From Tribonema minus (lineage: Eukaryota > Sar > Xanthophyceae > Tribonematales > Tribonemataceae): a DNA stretch of 64,000 bases. Shown in pieces: positions 36,401-64,000 of the stretch; position 1 is the stretch's first letter, and the number at the start of each line of letters is the position of its first letter. The stretch lies in the NCBI GenBank assembly GCA_017506865.1, contig JAFCMP010000335.1:186001-250000 (forward strand). Direction: 5' to 3'. The notes beneath the pieces are model-generated. The model was not told the origin of the DNA, did not search any database, and saw nothing but the letters and a program-made list of their open reading frames with translations. Position numbers and translations under genes: made by a program.

Positions 36401-37403
36401 CAAATGTGAGAAACTTCAGGCAATGTTGAAACTTAATGCGAGCACACTATGAAAATCCACATACTTACAGACGCGGGAAACTTTAAGCAACTTAAATAAG
36501 TGTGTTCACCGGAGATGAATGGAGGGGAGGGAGGGAAAGGATCTCAGCGAATCAGAAAATTTTGACCCAATTGTGGTAAATTTGGATGATTTCCGTATTA
36601 GGCAACACTCCTATATTTTGGCGAGTCTTCTCCACAAGCAGTCCCGCGCCCGGGGGGGGGGTCGCCACCGCCGAACAAGGCGTAAAACACCAGCACTCTC
36701 GACGGCGAGGAGCAATGATGATGCAGCAGCTGTTGCTGGGGCATGAGGCGCTTCATGTCTAGGCAGCAAGAACAGCGGATACAGACCCAGCAACAGGAAG
36801 TGTAAATACCGGTGTTGCACTTTGTTGCCACGTGACTGCAGGGCCGCCTGTCCCTGCAGCCCAACTGGAACTATCAGCATGGCCACAGCTAGCCCAAATT
36901 TAAAACGTCCACTCACCGTTCTTTAACCGCCAGTTGAAGTGTAGGAGGCAGGCGGCCCACTAAAAAAGTAGTGTCCTCATCTTTAGAATTGTGGCATGCA
37001 TTAGGGCATTTTTGTGACGTGCTTGCCACTTAACTTGGTGCAGTTTGCAGGCATGGCTCACATGTCAAACTCAGGGAAGTGTTGCCTGACAGGCACTGGA
37101 GGCGGGGGGGCGGCCATTGGATGTGGCGCACATGTGGATCATCAAGTCATGACTGAGATGAGGAAACATGTAGTACAGCACAGCTTGCCACACAGTGGCA
37201 CAGTGATCTTCCGCCCTACAGTGTCGTTGTGAGGAGTAGCAGAAAGTGTGCATCGTGCGGGGGTGGGGAGGGGGGGGGAGGTCATGCGCATACATGTTTT
37301 TGCTAAAGCTCTCTAGTGCAGACCTTGCTTGAAGTGATGATCACGATTCTCTTGGTGACTTCGCGGGGCTAGGCGCGGGAGAGCCCACGGTCGATGCTCC
37401 CTC
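36401..37403. other. region upstream of VDE, no gene recognised
   Basis: It lies between the truncated LINE and the VDE start. Frames at 36519-36746 (plus) and 36611-36916 (minus) are short and have no domain. G runs occur at 36651 and 37260. It should contain the VDE promoter, but no element is certain. Confidence 0.4.
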
Positions 37404-40400
37404 ATGCAACGCCGCAGGCGGGCTGCATTGGTCACCTCTACTACTCTAGTGGCTCTAGCAACGCTGCCGGAGGGCGGGACGGCTTTCCTACAGGGGCGCT
37501 TCTATCACAGAGCATGTGTACGACATCAGCACGGAATCAGGGGGAGCAGCGGCGACGGAAGCGGCAATAGCAGGAGGACGAGGGAGTATGTGCTGCTGCA
37601 CGTCTCGGGGGGTAATTCAGAGCGTGAGGAGGCGGTGTCCGTTGCGGCGACGTACAGGACAGAAGGCGCAGCGCGATTGCAAGATGCTCTCAGGAGTATC
37701 GCAGCAGTGGCGATGGGGGTTGGCCTTCTGCTGGGGAACGGCAGCTCGGTGGGCACCGGCTACGCTGCTCTAGCTGCGGAGCCCGCTGCCAGGCAGATAG
37801 ACTACGGGTGTCTAGCCTGCCAGTGCGGTGCGACGATGCTGCAGGCGGCGACAGACCCTCGGGCATTGCACGAGCTCTCCTGCTTGAGCATGTGCGATGC
37901 CAACGACATAGGGTGCCAGATGAAGTGCGGAGACCTGTACAAGGACGAAGTCCTGAGGGATTTTCAGGTCTGCGCTCTCTCCAAGCACAAGTGCTTGCCA
38001 CAGAGGGTGGACAGCACGGCCTCGCTGCCAGACCCCGCCGCGCTGCCCCGCACTTTCAACCCAGAGCAGTACTCGGGGGAGTGGTACATCACACACGGGC
38101 TCAACCCAATCTTTGATTGCTTCGACTGCCAGCGGCACAAGGTGACGGGAAGGCCGGGGCAGCTCATTGTCGACGTCGAGTACGACGTGCAGCCGGAGGG
38201 GAGGGGCCAGAGGTTCACTCGGCAGCTGAGGCAGGTCTTTGTGCAGAGCGAGGAGCACCCGACCGTGCTGACGGCGGCGGATCCTGGCTACCTGCACCAG
38301 CGCGATGACTGGTACATACTGGATGCGGACCCCGCCAAGTACATGTTGGTGTACTACACGGGTGAGTGCCGTAAAAGTGCCGAGTGAGCTCGTGTTGGAG
38401 CTGTCTGCGTTTTCTATCGTGAGTCGAATGGTACAGCGCTAATGCACAGCATTGCGATGGTGACGATGGAGGCAGCACAAGACAAAAATGCGCAATGTCA
38501 TTTCTCTGCGCTTTCCAACATGCTTCTGATTCCTCTTAGAGCTAGCAGAACAGTTAGTTGCGCCTGTTTGAAACAATACATCACTTTTTATTCAGGTCTG
38601 CCCCAATCGTCATGGGTGACTGTTCTGGCATTGTGTGTGCCATTCGCATAGGCTGGCGATGGCTCTCCTCTCCTTGAGTGGCAGTTGGCTCGTAGAGCTT
38701 GGTCAGCTGATGCTTGCATGTGCAACTGCAACTCCTCGTAACGATATACACATCCTTAAAAAAGAAGTGTAAATGGATGTAAGACATACAGGCGGCGATG
38801 TTTCACGCCGTGTTCTGTATGTTGCGCACAAAGCACAACGTTGTTGTGGCAGCAGCAGAATCTTGCATTCACGTTGTGTGACGCAAATGACACCGCACCT
38901 TCAGCTGCCAGCAGATTGGGCTGTTGGGTTATGCAACAACGCAGTTAGCTTGAGTTTGAATACAGCAGTTGCAGTCTTTGTAGGCAATGTAACCGCTCAC
39001 TGGCCACTGAACAACCCACACAAGGAGTAGGTGCCGCCCTATGTGTCAGTTTGATGTATTGATAGGGTTTTTCAAATCTTCAGCAGCGCAGATGACAATC
39101 CGCCATGTTGAGTTCGCAATCAGAGGCCATTCACACGCATTGCGCACAACCGCACAGTGCGTTTGATTGTGAGAGCTATGTAGTGTGGTTTCAAGTACGT
39201 GAGAGAAGTGTGTTTTGACCAACGATGGCGGCATGTGTCTGTTGGCTGCAGTTATAGAGACAGGGCAAATGAAATTGGCAAAGGGAGAGCAAGCAGAATG
39301 GTGTGATGAGGCAATCATTGTCAAGTTCATCAAGTTGAAGTTAAATAGAACAGTGCAATAGCACTTACTTACCATCACCTGCATGTGCGGGGCTTACCAA
39401 TCTGTTCACTTTGCAATCTGTGGTGGCATCTGCAACATGTATCTCGCAGCACCACACCCTGCTGACATCAATGCGCCATCAGCAGCTGACTTGAGCCTGC
39501 CTCGTCACCGCGCACCTCAGGCAATTCCTGCCGCGTGTGTAGTGGTTGCCTGATTCACAACGCTGGCACACATTACCAGTATCTCATTAGCCTCACACAC
39601 CGTACTTCTGAACGAACCCTTCGAAATTCGATTGGCCTCTCTTCTAGACTGACCTCGCATCAGAACTCTTTATTTGTGAATTATGGTGCTTTGCGGCACT
39701 TGCTCGACTGACTTCCGGCACGGCGTCGGTCTTCCATTTACTCAATTGTTGCCAGCCACAAGCTGCAGCAGCTCATGTGTGGGATTGCACTAAATGGACT
39801 TAGATGCAGGCTGAACAGGGAAAAGGTATCAGCAAGTCCCTTGTACTGACTTCATGGACCCAGATGCACGCTGAAGAGCCCAAAGCTATCAGCAAGTCCC
39901 TTGTTACTGACATTATCCATACCCGCGACTTACCCATCTACAACATGCCAAACCATGCCTGCCAACAACTTCGCTGTGTGCACATGCATTTACCTACACA
40001 CATCATGCCCACACCATACCTACAGTACCCATAACGTCGCTGTGTGCACTGTGTAGCATGGCGCACCATGCACAGGTGGACCCGTAAATGCTAGTTCTTG
40101 GCATTGGCATGCGTGTTGGTGCCTGAATTAAAGTTGGCATTGCAGCCCGCACTTTCAGTCACGTCTTCATGTAGCAGCCGTCAATGAGTGTAACACCCTC
40201 GGGCCCTCCACAGATCCTTCGATCACTGATGTTCCCAAACACTCGCAGACAGTGCGCCCCATCATGCACGCCTATGATTGCTGCGGCACTGTGTACGGCA
40301 GCTACAGAGCCTCTGTTCATCAGCGCTTTTGCTAAGTTCACCCAAGCAAACTTGCAGTGCATGTCTTCCTGACGGTGCGGTAGAGCAGCTCGCACATCAC

Positions 40401-53599: not shown

Positions 53600-54365
53600 G
53601 CGCACTTTGTCTAGGCTAGGTTCAAGGGCTCTGAGGTTCTCATACTTCACATGAGCCTAGCCTAGTCTAGTCCTGACTTGGTTGACCATGTTGTGTAAGG
53701 CCTGAAAGTGCACTATCCCTAGGCAAGGTTCATAGGCTCTGAGATTCTCATATTTCAGAGCAGTCTACTGGGACCACATTCAGGGAAGGCACAGTTGAAC
53801 TTAGTGCAACAAAGTTGAATATTTACGCCTTACAGAAAATGGGAGAGCGTCGTACACTTCACACTTGCTTGACTATATGGTGTGAGGCCAGAAAGCGCAC
53901 AGTCCCTAGGCAAGGTTCAAAAGGTGCTTCATGCCCGACTCTACAGTCCCTCAGTAAGTGATGCGATGCACAAGCAACGGCTGCGAGAGGGCGCACGCCC
54001 GAAACTGTTCTGCAGAGCTCTCGGGGCTACCCGCCCTCCACAGTCATTCACCACTGTTGAATATAATCCGGTTGAAGTTTGACGAATATAAGTTACAGAA
54101 ATCAGGAGAGCGTCGTACGCTGCACGTTTTGCTTTTGCGCTATAGAAACTATTTCAGATCAAAAGATTCGTGGGCAGCACAGTTGAAGTTGAATATAATA
54201 CAGGTGAAGTTGGGCTAATATAAACTACAGACATTGGGAGAGCGTCGTACGCTGCGCGTTTGGCTTTTGCGCTACAGAAACTATTTCAGATCTAAAGATT
54301 CGTGGGCAGCACAGCTGAACTTAATATACTCACACTTGAAGTTGAATATTCGCAGCCAGCACCTA
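53600..54365 (-). repeat. inverted, partial copies of the composite repeat
   Basis: Part B text (GGCTCTGAGGTTCTCATACT) at 53627 and 53732 is followed by part A units in reverse orientation near 53790-53880, 54060-54180 and 54190-54330 (GGAGAGCGTCGTACGCTGCA, TTTTGCGCTATAGAAACTAT, TTCGTGGGCAGCACAG). Minisatellite part C is missing. Confidence 0.75.
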
Positions 54366-55870: not shown

Positions 55871-56005
55871 GCGGAGTGTGCACGGGCGTGCACGTTTGAC
55901 AGTGGCACCAAATCACGGAGTGTGCACGAGCGTGCACATTTGACAGTGGCACCAACCACGGAGTGTGCACGGGCGTGCACATTTGACAGTGGCACCAAAC
56001 CACTT
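55871..56005. repeat. three 45-base tandem repeats 5' of the transposase remnant
   Basis: GGAGTGTGCACGGGCGTGCA...TTTGACAGTGGCACCAAA occurs three times (about 55875, 55917 and 55960), each with an internal inverted GTGCACGxGCGTGCAC. Subterminal repeats of this kind are often transposase-binding sites. Confidence 0.75.
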
Positions 56006-56128: not shown

Positions 56129-57340
56129 AGTGATGGCGTCGCCAAAGGACTCTGAGCGGGCCATAGGATGCATCACGGGTGGAACGGCTATCAGGGCGGC
56201 TGCTGCTAAAGCACACGGCATAGACCAGATGACGCTGTGCGCAAACATCACGGGGTCGTAGCAGTGGGTACCAAACATGGGCCCAAGCCAGTGCTCAGCC
56301 ACGAAGAGGAGCAGGCGTTGTTGACGCTATTGTACACCTGGCTCATGTGGGTCTCGGCCTCACAACAGATTGAATTTTGCGATGGGAGATCATGCAGATA
56401 ACCGCAGACGGGCGCCAGGTGCCTTGGGATGCGGTTGGTCCAGGCAAAAAATGGGTTGGCTCTTCTTCAATCGCTGGGATGAGCAGCTTTCCATGAGCAA
56501 AGCCTCGGTACACGACGGCCTAGGCGTGCTGCTGACGACCAGGAGCAGCGCTCCTCGAGTACTTCGAGCGTGTGCGCGCCTGCTTCGACAAGCACAAGTT
56601 CCCACCAGACCACATCCACAATTGGGACGAGACAGGTGATCCACTGCTTGATCTTGATGTCAATGCGCGGTGTCACGTGTTGTGGCTTTGCGGGTCGTGG
56701 TGCATTCCTGGTCAGCTGCGGACACACATTCATTGTTACGCAGGTTTTACACCTAAGGGCGCCAAGGCACCACGCGTTATAGCCGCAAAAGGTTGGAAAG
56801 CAGTGTCGGCAAACCGCTCCAGCAGCTGCGAGAACACAACGCTGTTGGTTGCCATCAACGCTGCTGGTGGACACACTGCCCCTATACTGGTATTCACAGC
56901 AGCAGCAAGGATTAGTGCAGTTGGGTGGCAGATGTGCCTGATGACTGGCTTGTATCACGCACGGAGTCATCTATGATGACCACCAACGTATTCCTTGACT
57001 GGACAACTAACTTGAAGTTCATCTCGCAGTTGCCTGCAGGCGGCGGCAAGCATGTGCTGTTCTTTGACGGCCATGTGTCACACATCTCCCTGGAGACTGT
57101 GGCATATGCAGAGGAGCGCAACGTGTCGACATTTCAGTTGCCTTCACATGCATCACACATGCTCCAGCCACTGGACCGTGCGGCATTTGGCAATCTGAAA
57201 GCACAGCACAAGACAGTGTTGCACAAGTTCCACACGGATGAGGGGCGCTACCCCCTCAAGGGTGACATGGGCAAGCTTATCCATGACTGTCAAGGCGCTC
57301 ACAGCAGCGAACATCACAAGCTCCTTTGCAGCCGCTGAGC
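56129..57340 (+). pseudogene. pogo/Tigger-like (DDE_1) transposase, frameshifted
   Basis: From 56129 a psq-type helix-turn-helix reads SERAIGCITGGTAIRAAAAK and AHGIDQMTLC. Near 56620 comes IHNWDETG (first catalytic Asp), then KHVLFFDGHVSHISLE near 57050 (second Asp), then LPSHASHMLQPLDRAAFGN near 57145 (third Asp). These are the signatures of the DDE_1 superfamily of Tc1/mariner-related transposons. The frame changes at least near 56260, 56570 and 56925, so no active enzyme is made. Subterminal repeats lie upstream; a matching right end was not found. Confidence 0.75.
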
Positions 57341-57831: not shown

Positions 57832-59712
57832 TCAAGATGCACTGGTAACACACATGGCGCACAAAAGAGCTGCTGCCGTCTGTGTCTCACAAACATCAGC
57901 ACAATACGTGCTGTGAACAGCATGATCGCTGCTGAAAGACACTGCTGCACTTGTGCGTGCGCCGCTGCGCACATCCGCTGCTGGTGTGTCTGGCGGCTCC
58001 GCGCCAGCGCCACGCCCGCACATGCTTGTGCGCTGTCCGAGCGCCGCCTTGTGACGCGCCTGCTGGTCACGAATGCGCTGTTGCTCCTCAAGCGTATGCG
58101 CCGCCCAGTACTCCCACCGCTTCTGCTGCCGCCGCGAGAGCGGCCGCCCCAAGCCACCGCCTGCGTGCCGCATGCTCCGACGCGCAGCGCTGATGCCCAC
58201 GAGCTGTTGTATCGGCACCGTTGCCGTCGCCGTCGCCGAGCTCGCCGCGCCCGTGCCGCCGCCTTGGTGGCGTGCGCCGCCGCCGCCGCCTCGCGCGCCG
58301 CCGCTGCCGCTCCGCGCGCCGCAGCTACCGCCGCCGCGTGCGCTGCTGCTGCCGCCGCCACTGCCGCCGCCGCGCGCGCTGCCGCTACCGCCGCCGCCGC
58401 CGCTGCCGCGCGCTGGGAGCGTGGCCACAGTGTCGCCACTGTCACGTGCGCCACTGCGTGCGCGCAGAGATGAAAGCGCCGCTGTCGCCGGTGCCGAAAG
58501 CGCGGCCGCAGCGCCGCCGCTGTTGTGCCCGCCGACGTCGCATGCGCGCACAGCTGCATGCGCCGCCGTTGTCGGCGCTGAGAGCATGGCTGCAGTGCTG
58601 CTGCTGCGAAGCGCGCCACTGCTGCATGCTTGCAATGTTGTAAGCGCCTCCGTCGGCGCTGAGCGTGCGGCACATGCGCCGCCGCTGTTGTTGGCGCAGC
58701 TGATGTTGCCCGCGCTGTCGTCGCCTGCGCGCGCCGACGCCAGCACTGTAGCCACTGGTGAGTGTGGCGCTGTGCAAAAGCTGATGTCGCTGCCGCTGTT
58801 GCGAGCGTCAGTGCCGCTGCCGCCCATAGATGCCGTCACCAAGCTGGCCGCTTGTGCGCATGCGAGTTGCTCACGCAGTGCAGCACCTGCGCGCGCTCCC
58901 GCGTCGCACACCATGTGCAAGTGCACACACTGCGCATCAGCAGCCCTCAGCCGCTGTTGCAGCCCCTCTGCGTACGCCCTGCTCCTCGCAGCATCCTCCG
59001 CCAGCTCCGACACCCGTCTCCTCAGCTGCAAAAGCGCTGCTGAATCGGCAGCGCATTGCCGCTCCAACTGCTGCAAGCGAGGAACGTCAACAACACTGCC
59101 TGCCTCCATGTTTGCTGCCGCAGGTACTTCGCAGCTGCTGTCCGTCTGCGTACTTGCAGTGGAGGTTGAAGTGCCTTGAGCAGCTGCTGGATGCTCCCCC
59201 CCAGCACGCAACTGTGCATTCTCTGCTTCCACGCGTTGAAGTCGTTGTTGTAGCTCCAGAACTAGCATACCCGCTGCTGATGACTCCAGCTCCTTGATGC
59301 GTAGCTCAAGCGCATACTGCACGTCCTCGTAGTGTGCTATCTGATCAGAGCACCGCAGCTCCGCCTCCTCGGCCTTGTTGCATAGCTCTGTATTCTGCCT
59401 GTTGAGCTTCTTGATGCGCGCCTGCAGATCTGCTGCTTGCGCTGCCGCATCTGCAACCTGCGACTGCAAGCGCGATTCCGCACCTGCAAAACGCTGCTGC
59501 AAGCTGAGCTCTGCCTGCTGCGCTGCTGCCTCCGCCTCCTTGCTTCGCTGCAGCCGCTCTTGCAGCATGCTGACTCTCTGCTGCTCCGCAGCGACTCCCT
59601 GTTTGACTTCTTCAAGGCGCGCCCTGGATCGGGTTTGTTTCTGAAGCAGCTTCTCCTCAGCCGCGAAGAAGTAGTCCATAGCGCTGAGCACCTCATCGAG
59701 CTTGTCCGACAT
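57832..59712 (-). CDS. coiled-coil protein of unknown function, single exon
   Basis: ATG at 59712 opens MSDKLDEVLSAMDYFFAAEE; the frame is open for 626 codons (and further upstream to 59889 without another ATG). Residues 1-150 and about 205-290 are heptad-rich coiled coil (QARIKKLNRQNTELCNKAEE). The middle is Ala/Ser/Gly-rich with a long GGGSGGG segment. A short conserved-looking block, RRQQKRWEYWAAHTLEEQQR, precedes the C-terminus. A structural, cytoskeletal or centrosomal role is possible, but nothing proves it. The last 60 residues may be read-through past an unseen donor. It points away from the retroelement frame that starts 250 bases to the right. Confidence 0.6.
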   Translation of the reverse strand: MSDKLDEVLSAMDYFFAAEEKLLQKQTRSRARLEEVKQGVAAEQQRVSMLQERLQRSKEAEAAAQQAELSLQQRFAGAESRLQSQVADAAAQAADLQARIKKLNRQNTELCNKAEEAELRCSDQIAHYEDVQYALELRIKELESSAAGMLVLELQQRLQRVEAENAQLRAGGEHPAAAQGTSTSTASTQTDSSCEVPAAANMEAGSVVDVPRLQQLERQCAADSAALLQLRRRVSELAEDAARSRAYAEGLQQRLRAADAQCVHLHMVCDAGARAGAALREQLACAQAASLVTASMGGSGTDARNSGSDISFCTAPHSPVATVLASARAGDDSAGNISCANNSGGACAARSAPTEALTTLQACSSGALRSSSTAAMLSAPTTAAHAAVRACDVGGHNSGGAAAALSAPATAALSSLRARSGARDSGDTVATLPARGSGGGGGSGSARGGGSGGGSSSARGGGSCGARSGSGGARGGGGGARHQGGGTGAASSATATATVPIQQLVGISAARRSMRHAGGGLGRPLSRRQQKRWEYWAAHTLEEQQRIRDQQARHKAALGQRTSMCGRGAGAEPPDTPAADVRSGARTSAAVSFSSDHAVHSTYCADVCETQTAAALLCAMCVTSAS

Positions 59713-59959
59713 ATCGTTGCTGCTGGAGTTGCTGTAAAACCAGCGCCAGCCCCAAAGCTCCTCGTCGATCAACCACGCATGCAGCTTATGCGCTATAGCC
59801 TGACTCGCAGTAGCACGCTCCCCCCCCACTATTTTGCTTCCAGCAAAAGGTGTCAAGGTGCTGTTGATTAGTAGATGAGCACGTGCCACCAGGAAGGTGG
59901 CGGTATGCTAGAGCAGCTGCTATTGCGCTGCTGGTTGAGAGCCGAAGGGCGCCTTGTGA

Positions 59960-62900
59960 AGAGCACGCCCCCAGCTGTTGAATCCCGAAAAACTTCTGCT
60001 ATCGCCGTTTACAGCTGCTGACTGCCCGGACCTCTTAGGTTGCGTGCAGCAGGGGTGCCGACGGAATAGCGGAAGCCGAACACATCTTTCCAGCGCGTCT
60101 CCTGGCCGGTTAAGTCCTGCCGAGATCTGCTTGTCCGCCGAGCTGCGTAGGAGCATTAAGGCGTTCCTGCACGATCATAGGGGCGCTAATGGCGACCTGT
60201 CAGGCAGGCAAATCAGTGCGTTGCATGCTCACCTCAACCGCGAGTATAGTGAGTCAATGCAGCGTAGCAAGGCAGACACAAGGTTGGAGCAGCTGCGCCT
60301 GGAGCCGGGAGTGAGCATCCAGGTATTTTTGTTGGACTTTGAGAAAGTGCTGCAATACACATTGCACGGATTGGAGTTGGGAGAGAAGGTGTTCAGAGAC
60401 AGGTTTGTCAGAAGGCTCATTGACACTCTGGCAAGATCCAAAGATGTGAAGGCCCGAGTTGAAAAGTTCTTGGAGGCACTGGTAGAGTTCAGGGTGGTGC
60501 TCGAGCGCCAAGGGACGGATCAAGTGGACATGGCGTCGGTAAGGCTGAAACTGCAGCAGGCAGAGAGTGTAGTGGCTGCAACGAAGGGCATGTCAGTGCG
60601 CGCATACTTGGCGGCAGAGGTGAGTAAGAAGTCTGAGAAGCGGGGGGGCTCGACATATGCATTTGGTGGTGGCGGGTCAGAATCTGAGTCGGAAAACTCT
60701 GAGGGCGGCGCTTCTGGGGCTGACGTTCTTGCCACGCAGGGCGGCAGCGGCGCTGTGCCTAACACCCGGACTATTGACACTAACGCTGAAACTCCGTGGA
60801 ATGCAGCGCTGGACAGGTTCAGCTCCCATCTTCAACAGCATGCCAGTGACATGAACCAGCGTTTTGACTCACTTATCCGCGCAATGAGTCAGCGTCACGG
60901 TGCTCCTCTGCAGACCGCTCCTCACAGGCAGCTATACTACCCTGCTGACAACCGCCAGGGCCCGCCCAATTACGGCAGGCAGGGCTGGGGCGCCGCGCCC
61001 AACATCGGGGGCAACATCAACTCCAGGCCAAACGGGGGTTTGATCTCCAACACCGGGGGGGGGGCTCGTGTCGCTAACAACTTCCCCCTTGATCCCTCCA
61101 GTCTCTCCCCTGAGTTGGTGCAGGCTGTGCTGGCAATTGTACACGGCGAGAGGCCAGCAGTAGGCCCCACTGCGCCCACGTGGTCCACTGCGTTTGGCGT
61201 GGGGGCGGACAACGAGGCAGAGTACTTCTTCTCGGCGCGCACCTACTTCGCGTGGGATCCCTCGGCAGGCCGGGTGTGTCTGAGCTGCGACCCCAACAAG
61301 TTCGCTGAGTGCTGCTGCTTCGTGGCAGATGATGAGGTAGCAGAGGTGAGTAGTCTGGTCTGCGTGGCAGGTGCTGATGCTGGTGGCCAAATTGGCAGGA
61401 TGGCCCCAGTGGTGCTCATGGTAGAGGCGCAGATTCACAATGTCACGCCTGCAGTGGTTTATCTGGATTCGTGCGCAGGCTGCGATGTGATGCAGTTCAG
61501 GGCATACTGCCTTCTGTTGCGTAAGCTGAGAGACAGGGCAGAGACGGCGCAGCAGGCAGTGCGTTTGGAGCAATCCCAGCGCCAGCCCACATTTAAGGCG
61601 ATTCGTGGGGTTGGCAGGCACCTGGTAGCAGTGATGTTTATGGTGACTGTGCAGGTGGAGATTGCGGGCGTCTCAGCTCAAGTTGACGTCCATGTGAGCA
61701 ACCAAATCGACCCTCAGTTCCTGCTCAGCTACAGCACCATTGCGCGTATGCGGTTGGACATGCTCACGAGTCGCTCGCCTGCCATGGTACAGCATCCTGA
61801 CTTCCCTAACAAAGCAGTCAAGTCGCTGACCCCTGATGAGGTAGCAGCCAAGCGTGACCAATGGCGTAGCGCGCGCAATGCTGGCAACCAACAAGGAGTA
61901 CAGTCGGCCGAAGTTGCAGTTGACCTAGGCTCGGTGTTGAAGTTTGAGTATGGGTCGCTGCCCGCGGAGCTGTTGGAGGAGCGTGCGGAGAATGGTGAGC
62001 CTGGCCCGAAGTTTGTGTTGAGCAAGGGCACGCAGCGAATGCAACCACCTATTGACCTTGACAGTGTTGATGATGAGAGGGTAACCAGTGTGGATGATCT
62101 GCCGAAAGCGGGATGGGAGGTAGACGTGCAGCACCGACACTGGCACAACGGTGAGTCGAATGAGGTAATGTCGGTTAGCTCAGAGTCGATTGACAGTGCC
62201 TCAGAGGACGGAGAGCCGGCTGACAGGTATGTGGAGGAGACAGACTGTACAAAGATGTCAGGTGAAGATTCAGCAGACGACAGTGACATGGAGCTCGATG
62301 CTGCGCGCACTCAGTCTTGTGATGAGACAGTTGAAGTTGAAGTTGACGTGGCGCTTGCTGAGCTTGATGCAGATAGGCGCTCAGGGTGCTACGACAAAAG
62401 GGGGGGGCCAACTTGGGCAGTGCAGGATTGCCACCCAGACAGGTGGGCAGCAATTTCACCAGTGGAGCGCGGTGAGTACCCAAACGTTGAGCACATGACC
62501 GTGTCAAGCCTCACAGTGGTAGACTTGGGGGCGGGCATTGGCAGCTCCGTGAAAGGTGCGATTATGGGAGGGGCGCAGGTAGCATTGGCAGTGGAGATAG
62601 ATGATACATATGCTGCCATCTTTCGCGCATCTCACCCCAACGTGCCCTTGCTGGTGGCAGACTACACATCTGATAAGGTGTGGGACAGGATTATGGAGAT
62701 AGACCCTGACCTAGTAACTGCCAGCACCCGTTGTGAAGGCGCCAGCAGACAGCGCTTCAAGCCAGCTGGGGCGATCAGAGTTGATGCAGAAGCAAATCAG
62801 GTAAACCCAACTTGAAAGTTGGTGGACAAGGCCATTCAGCGAGGCGTGAAATGCCTGATGATTGAGAATGTGCCAGAGATCAGCGAGACAATCAGCGGGC

Positions 62901-63772
62901 AGTTGGCGATTGAGCATGCGCACCAGGCAGGATACCATGTGTTGTCATTTGAGCTCTCACTGGCAGGTGCAGACCTAGGGTTCCCTAACCTGCGCAATCG
63001 CGTGTTCTTTCTCATCACCAGGGGAGACCAAACTGTTGTGGACACCTTGCGTACAGTGGCAGGCAGGATTGAGGAGGCCAAGTATGGCGGTCACAAGCAG
63101 GAGAGAGTGCAGATTAACCCTGGTGAAATGTGGGGCGTGTCTAACCCTGTGTATGTGCTGCCGCCGCGCAATGCCACAGCTCGCTGGACACATGACGCCA
63201 AGCGCAGTGCTCCCACTCTCGTTTCACGCCACTTCCATGTGTTTCGCCAGCCTCCAGACGACCAAATGCGTCGAGGTGACATTGAGTTCTCGCTCTCACA
63301 GCGGTATGTCCCCTCGCAGGCTGACGTGATGCGAGCCAACGGCTTGTGGTGGATCAAGGTGCCGCCGGGGGTCAGTCAGACTGCCCTGGCAAAAGGTTGT
63401 GGCCAGATCGTGCTGGCACCAGTCATGTCATTTATTGTGCGCATCTTGCGCACTGAGCCTGTATTGTTTGACACGCAGCATCGCCTGCACCCAGCGGCGT
63501 CGCGTCTCATTGAGGATGGCATTTTTGTGCAGACACTTGGCCGGTATGCACTGCCTGAGGAACACCCTCAGGGCGGCACTCTCGTGGGGCCTGTACTCAT
63601 TGCCTCCTCTCTGCCTAGCACGCCATTTTTGCGCAAGCTACGGCACATGCAGGGCTCGGTCAAGAGCGCTGGCAACAACAACCGCGAGCCAGGACCACAG
63701 CCGACCTCTACCTCAACTTCAACCTCGTGCACGGCGTCAGCTCATGAGTACTACTCACACCTGGCTGCGTGA
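59960..63772 (+). mobile_element. retroelement polyprotein with Gag-like, retropepsin-like and C5-DNA methyltransferase domains
   Basis: One reading frame from 59960 to 63772, broken only by TGA at 62813; the first in-frame ATG is at 60257. Gag-like helical region at about 60257-60510 (FLLDFEKVLQYTLHGLELGE). Protease-like: YLDSCAGCDVM (61458), FKAIRGVG (61591), then QFLLSYSTIARMRLDML. Methyltransferase: motif I VVDLGAGIGSSVKGAIMGG with VEIDD (about 62518-62610), catalytic motif IV as RCEGASRQ (62726; Pro before Cys replaced by Arg), motif VI IENVPEI (62861), motif VIII LGFPNLRNRVFFLI (about 62976), and motif IX/X-like sequence to 63440 (KGCGQIVLAPVM). That is a nearly complete cytosine-C5 methyltransferase fused in frame behind Gag-PR. 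The Gly of the protease DSG is Cys here. No LTRs were identified. Activity is doubtful because of the TGA and the Arg. Confidence 0.75.
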
Positions 63773-64000
63773 GCCCACCTTAGTTGTTTCTATGGTGTGC
63801 GCGCGCTGACTGGCACGGTGGTGCCCCTGGGCTGGCGTGTTGTTACCCGCCAACAGGGCGTGCAGCAGGGCGACCCATTGGGGCCGCTGCTGTTCGCGCT
63901 GGCACTGCGCGGCACCATGGTGGCTGCCCGCGCCAAGTTCCCGCAACTGGCGCTTCCGGGCTACCTCGATGACCTCACCATCATGACGCCCAGCTGTGAC
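63690..64000 (+). mobile_element. non-LTR-type reverse transcriptase fragment, cut by window end
   Basis: A motif-A-like DLYLNFNLVHGVS (about 63701-63739, another frame) is followed by TRQQGVQQGDPLGPLLFALA (from 63848) and catalytic YLDDLTIM (from 63962). The second part is in the same frame as the methyltransferase polyprotein, with one TGA (63770) between. The fingers region before motif A is missing, so this may be a 5'-truncated LINE inserted in the end of the retroelement. Alternatively it is the element's own RT, damaged. Confidence 0.65.

Follow-up and report, generated by a model that had tools for sequence, protein, structure and literature searches.

The segment at 60127-63723 of the window, by which is meant the whole stretch of 64,000 nucleotides of Tribonema minus DNA that was analysed, is very probably what remains of a Ty3/gypsy LTR element, now truncated and dead, from a family (family A) whose Gag-Pol has a DNA methyltransferase (DNMT) as a lasting part, ahead of RT, RNase H and integrase. 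The host is a xanthophyte stramenopile. An earlier note, made from the letters of this DNA, had proposed that a retroelement here carries a C5-cytosine DNMT of its own. Its main idea is borne out, though less strongly for the copy in question, a dead one among a large set of Ty3/gypsy elements with a DNMT; the Pfam matches and the family-wide coupling of DNMT and RT speak for it, but the window copy itself is decayed. The family letters and the subfamily names A1 (that of the window), A2 and A3 are labels coined in this analysis.

The relic in the window

The copy in the window is a dead relic: it is truncated, stopped and interrupted. Its parts and its borders are as follows.

59960..60126, + strand: flank, not part of the element and open in the same frame by chance; the alignments to the C190 and C533 elements both begin at 60127
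60127..63723, + strand: 5'-truncated Ty3/gypsy copy of subfamily A1 with Gag-like, protease-like and DNMT parts; 98.4% DNA identity, 3597 columns, against C190:955283-958867 and C533
60128..60520, + strand: weak Gag-like region, from its position; Retrotrans_gag E 0.13 in the A2 homologue, no match in A3
61454..61774, + strand: putative protease-like region (LDSCAGC); Pfam and profile comparison gave no support
62507..62812, + strand: DNMT part 1, with motif I (DLGAGIGSS) and the motif IV region with TRC; PF00145 profile 2-77
62729-62731 and 62732-62734, + strand: Arg and Cys codons of TRC in DNMT part 1; pattern match C335:248714-248746
62813..62815, + strand: in-frame TGA splitting the DNMT
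62816..63723, + strand: DNMT part 2, then spacer; PF00145 profile 104-171; family profile aligned by hhalign to the E/F DNMTs over 287 columns
62864-62872, + strand: ENV (motif VI), in DNMT part 2
62987-63001, + strand: NLRNR (motif VIII), in DNMT part 2
63368-63424, + strand: GVSQ..APV (motif X-like), in DNMT part 2
63724..64000, + strand: start of a 2.4-kb insertion, the whole of which is C335:249724-252141; target duplication of ~10 bp

The numbers I, IV, VI, VIII and X given to the DNMT motifs follow general usage or are labels of this analysis. The open frame comprises 951 codons, whereas the longest in 300 mononucleotide shuffles had 315. All the motifs had been placed by the earlier note in one reading frame, which is incorrect, as the TGA separates DNMT motifs IV and VI. 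The feature had also been drawn from 59960 to 63772, of which 60127-63723 is element, while the first ~56 codons are flank and the last ~15 codons (63724-63772) are part of the insertion, which runs beyond the window. Past the insertion, the element sequence restarts at C335:252142 and stops inside RT at C335:254007; the RT of this copy is partial and lies outside the window. LTRs were sought around the copy and none was found.

The two DNMT halves match consecutive segments of the Pfam DNA_methylase profile (2-77, E 0.012; 104-171, E 0.0037) with scores of 15 and 17 bits, each of which alone is under the curated cut-off of 22. Motif IV reads TRCEGAS and not PPCQ. The Gag-like stretch stays weak, with its single marginal profile match in A2. 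The stretch LDSCAGC (61463-61483) had been called retropepsin-like, and for this no backing was obtained: no family A protease was found by Pfam in two subfamilies or by profile comparison with the proteases of the sister families.

Several other features were observed in and around the window. The insertion at 63724 holds a frame of 768 codons, of which 691 codons were tested without a Pfam match, and is related to a repeat at C190:967262-969000. A violaxanthin de-epoxidase-type frame lies at 37359-38384 (+; VDE lipocalin domain, E 3e-56), and a DDE_1 transposase fragment, presumably pogo/Tigger-like, at 56925-57335 (+; E 3e-11). Short tandem arrays are found at 54056-54319 (2 x 132 bp) and 55872-56003 (3 x ~44 bp). 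The neighbouring minus-strand frame of 691 codons (57835-59907), whose later part is rich in Gly, Ser and Ala and coiled-coil by eye, was considered as a part of the element and rejected; its DNA partly recurs beside the C190 A1 copy and is probably another repeat.

Coupling of the methyltransferase to the element

The DNMT is integral to the family A element. It lies 1.23-1.31 kb upstream of RT on the same strand in 44 of 50 near-full-length A-type RT matches; the DNMT is farther off in two of the remainder and absent in four, one of these being near a contig end. The 50 matches, out of 115, are those with at least 91% identity that cover at least 1-348 of 360, the partial matches and those at 37-89% identity having been left out of the pairing.

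Four undamaged frames were scanned, namely two of A1 (C190, 2821 codons; C533, 3105 codons and still open at the end of the contig), one of A2 (C214, 3455 codons) and one of A3 (C550, 3561 codons). RVT_1, RT_RNaseH, Integrase_H2C2 and rve follow in that order in all four. The Pfam DNMT match is present in both A1 frames and in the A3 frame (E 9e-8 to 1e-11; 32 bits in A1 and 45 in A3 against the cut-off of 22), while the A2 frame has no PF00145 match at E 0.01 or better and its DNMT is visible by alignment only. The C550 copy (C550:284441-297652, 13.2 kb) has TG..CA LTRs of 421 and 409 bp, between which 1 substitution and two indels can be reckoned from the alignment figures, and is flanked by a 4-bp duplication, CTCC. 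As the LTR pair is nearly identical and CTCC stands on both sides, this copy is a young insertion; TG..CA LTRs with a duplication were checked in this copy only. LTR-like ends of A1 occur in two different copies and are 99.4% alike over 328 columns.

The near-constant spacing bears on whether an old element merely came to lie beside an unrelated DNMT gene. Such an accidental fusion is suggested only by the broken frame of the window, and both the spacing and the undamaged single frames in independent copies exclude it, so that its probability is negligible; the earlier note had named a separation of the Gag-protease and DNMT parts in other copies as the sign of it, and what was found instead is the near-constant distance from DNMT to RT in 44 of the 50 matches. 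The long frames could also stem from a mis-assembled or contaminating repeat family, for which it may be said that four of eight checked places are on contigs under 0.2 Mb. The other four, however, are inside contigs of 0.5-1.15 Mb, and an NCBI protein annotated as Tribonema minus belongs to the family, which leaves this explanation very improbable, if slightly less so than the fusion.

The DNMTs are numerous. In a genome search with PF00145 the best 123 of 378 candidates were scored and all were over the cut-off; among these 123, 88 are in frames of >1000 codons, 48 of >2000 and 16 of >3000 (lengths transcribed by hand). The union of the searches gives at least 278 distinct DNMT places in several element families, a lower bound composed of 59 of 90 family A matches, all 123 PF00145 matches, and 54 of 120 and 100 of 125 matches of further protein searches. 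These were mostly the best-scoring ones, entered by hand and merged within 1500 bases; the protein searches used the family A, B, E and F domains, each with the best candidates only being scored. At least eleven further DNMT places, each 250 residues or longer, were selected by eye.

The count of 278 includes places that are not in elements, namely stand-alone frames on C223 and C181 and a Dnmt2-like exon on C523. The stand-alone frames (C223:937874, C223:702740 and C181:39962) have 367-390 codons and a GFPCVGLS motif, and in the tree the two from C223 are placed away from the DNMTs of elements. The exon (C523:358815-359333; best structure match E 1.8e-38) probably belongs to a host gene. An E-like DNMT (39% identity) at C311:3907-4851 is in an unusually long frame of 6208 codons.

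In the protein searches, close relatives came from T. minus itself, a single transcriptome and metagenomes only, and a protein search restricted to long polyproteins gave no match. A metagenomic relative (P0001) keeps TRCEGAS. A transcriptome-derived protein (P0003) matches 20% of the query at 96% identity; therefore at least parts of such elements seem to be transcribed.

The active site and its loss in one subfamily

Nine aligned DNMTs of different families, A1 and A3 included and A2 not, all share the Gly of motif I, the catalytic Cys, ENV and RxR. The catalytic motif varies around the Cys: it is PPC in families B and E, APC in F, and RC in A1 and A3. The residue before the Cys is encoded by an Arg codon at 28 of 29 matched places in A1, with His at the other one, and by Arg at all six in A3; these patterns require the Cys codon and are blind to loss of the Cys. 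In A2, a deletion of 25 codons, seen by alignment, removes the catalytic motif. Its junction has identical letters at 28 places; of these, 27 are among the 28 long A2 matches and one is a fragment on C264, and the remaining long match, on C272, falls outside the deletion pattern. When the same A2 flanks were searched for without the deletion, nothing in the genome matched. The A2 frames reach 3455 codons.

Between the A subfamilies, pairwise dN/dS is 0.16-0.23 for the DNMT, 0.11-0.25 for the protease-like region, 0.17-0.36 for the Gag-like region and 0.04-0.07 for RT where computable. These values are rough since dS is high (1.2 to 2.8, and infinite in one RT comparison), and part of the A2 comparison dates from before the deletion. 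Two near-identical A1 copies give about 0.3 for both DNMT and RT, on very few changes. The CpG observed/expected ratio is 0.67-0.80 in six element frames and 0.87 in the window. This depletion was considered as a sign of self-methylation and set aside, being too slight and lacking a DNMT-free element as control.

In intact ancestors the DNMT would have been made within the polyprotein and would have entered the particle with RT and integrase, where it may contact nucleic acid around reverse transcription or integration. For families B and E with the canonical PPC, the simplest role would be methylation of the element's own new cDNA, which is put forward tentatively as something less than an even chance. 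For family A, the substitution of RC for PC and the loss of the catalytic motif in A2 speak against methylation being needed. Methylation was probably altered in family A by the change from PC to RC and lost in A2, the domain surviving as a passenger or as a part without catalytic function. The phrase "able to methylate DNA" in the earlier note accordingly finds no support in the broken copy of the window, and for the family it is doubtful.

The family A domain could be a pseudo-methyltransferase, serving in nucleic-acid or SAM binding or as a structural or spacer part. The Arg before the Cys at all matched A3 places and at nearly all matched A1 places favours this, as do the A2 deletion with its one junction and no undeleted form matched, and the length of the A2 frames. 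Yet the Cys, ENV and RxR are retained in A1 and A3, A2 might spread by means of enzymes from its A1 or A3 relatives or might be a recent burst too young for decay, and the C272 match departs from the pattern. Of the alternatives weighed here it is the most credible one, approaching an even chance without attaining it. The enzyme might instead act on RNA, either the element RNA or a tRNA primer, like Dnmt2, its nearest solved relative. The best structure-database matches of the A, E/F and combined profiles are indeed Dnmt2-type tRNA methyltransferases, with no entry named Dnmt3 among the matches of these profiles. However, M.HhaI and DNMT1 rank next in the combined profile, the family B domain alone prefers 3g7u, another bacterial-type methyltransferase, before Dnmt2, and closeness in sequence does not reveal the substrate; action on RNA is accordingly regarded as improbable.

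Sister families, origin and known systems

The place of the DNMT in the polyprotein differs between families. A metagenomic protein of family B has gag-asp_proteas at 57-150 and the DNMT at 308-429, the protease thus being upstream of the DNMT, and a T. minus copy of family B aligns to it through the protease end; in families E and F the DNMT comes first and the protease after it. The gag-asp_proteas matches in B (metagenomic relative), E and F have E 0.0046 to 1.2e-4, all under the curated cut-off, and the D[SC]GA motif agrees with them. In the DNMT tree, A groups with the relic family D (98/93), E with F and a relative (99/95), A/D with E/F (99/96), and B with C (100/99). Profile comparison links A both with E/F (E 1e-17) and with B/C (E 8e-12); in the spacer before RT no homology was found between A and E/F. 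From the differing order of protease and DNMT together with the relatedness of the DNMTs, there must have been at least one relocation of the DNMT, or more than one capture.

A single common origin of all the element DNMTs was considered and not retained, as its support falls from 91/95 with few references to 49/63 with more; the later version leaves out P0021 and has ten more rows. The trees are weakened by long branches (L028, P0023) and by the rows of relic family D, and the RT tree resolves three deep groups only and cannot test congruence with the DNMT tree. Viral contigs were scanned for a possible source: A and E/F had no match there, and the B/C profile had only nine relatives, all distant (27-40% identity).

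The capture of DNMTs by retrotransposons has been described before. DNMTs are reported in LINE and DIRS elements of Symbiodinium and a Gypsy element of Klebsormidium; these are Dnmt3-type or orphan, and in yeast activity was shown for the DIRS DNMTs, with inconclusive results for others (de Mendoza et al., 2018; PMC5890265). KnitGypsy-Dnmt3 of Klebsormidium nitens resembles the Tribonema elements in being a Gypsy LTR element with the DNMT inside the Pol frame and under purifying selection, and differs in its Dnmt3-type DNMT with conserved key residues, its charophyte host and its DIRS-like repeat arrangement (PMC5890265). The Tribonema elements, in contrast, are in a stramenopile, have Dnmt2 as nearest profile match, ordinary LTRs in the one copy checked, and several families with one active-site-less subfamily. 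SymbioDIRS-Dnmt3 and SymbioLINE-Dnmt share hundreds of copies, purifying selection and some transcription with them, and SymbioDIRS also coexisting different domain orders; unlike them, they are DIRS and LINE rather than Ty3/gypsy, Dnmt3-type or orphan, and conserved in their key amino acids, according to the same paper (PMC5890265).

Other algae of this clade bear on the subject too. Stramenopile Gypsy elements with Tudor or chromodomains, including a Tudor homologue noted in T. minus, likewise acquired epigenetic domains, although these are described as readers and not methyltransferases (PMC12477816). Retrotransposons with adenine or cytosine methylases are stated to occur in stramenopiles among others (PMC6338049). 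T. minus is reported to have DNMT5, HELLS and a putative CDCA7 (PMC10538959), and its brown-algal relative Ectocarpus is described as being without cytosine methylation (PMC12477816).

Among the papers listed in a literature search, mainly outside subscription journals, none dealt with DNMT retroelements in Tribonema. From the known DNMT retroelements these are set apart by the stramenopile host, the Dnmt2-nearest profile, the relocation in the polyprotein and the amplified active-site-less form; to be first in stramenopiles is not claimed. That the capture was independent, as the earlier note had supposed, is plausible because the host group is different, no structure match is named Dnmt3 and close relatives came only from the sources named above; the supposition is tempered by a DNMT tree that is poorly rooted and without Dnmt3 sequences or known element-borne DNMTs.

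The surprise is an amplified subfamily without an active site, together with the varying places of the DNMT in the polyprotein. The fullest account would be that a non-Dnmt3 methyltransferase was captured by the Ty3/gypsy elements of one alga and relocated, and that one lineage changed PC to RC and then suffered the deletion, still multiplying and constrained in the rest; as a whole this is rather unlikely, though clearly less so than action on RNA. If true, the captured enzyme would serve the element other than by methylation. Why retrotransposons capture cytosine methyltransferases has been an open question since 2018 (PMC5890265). The genome of T. minus is a natural experiment in this regard, as it holds canonical families, subfamilies with a changed site and a subfamily without the site, whose copies range from 6 matched places to dozens, long open frames being common among them. 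A comparison of methylation, age and spread among these families would directly test the need for self-methylation.
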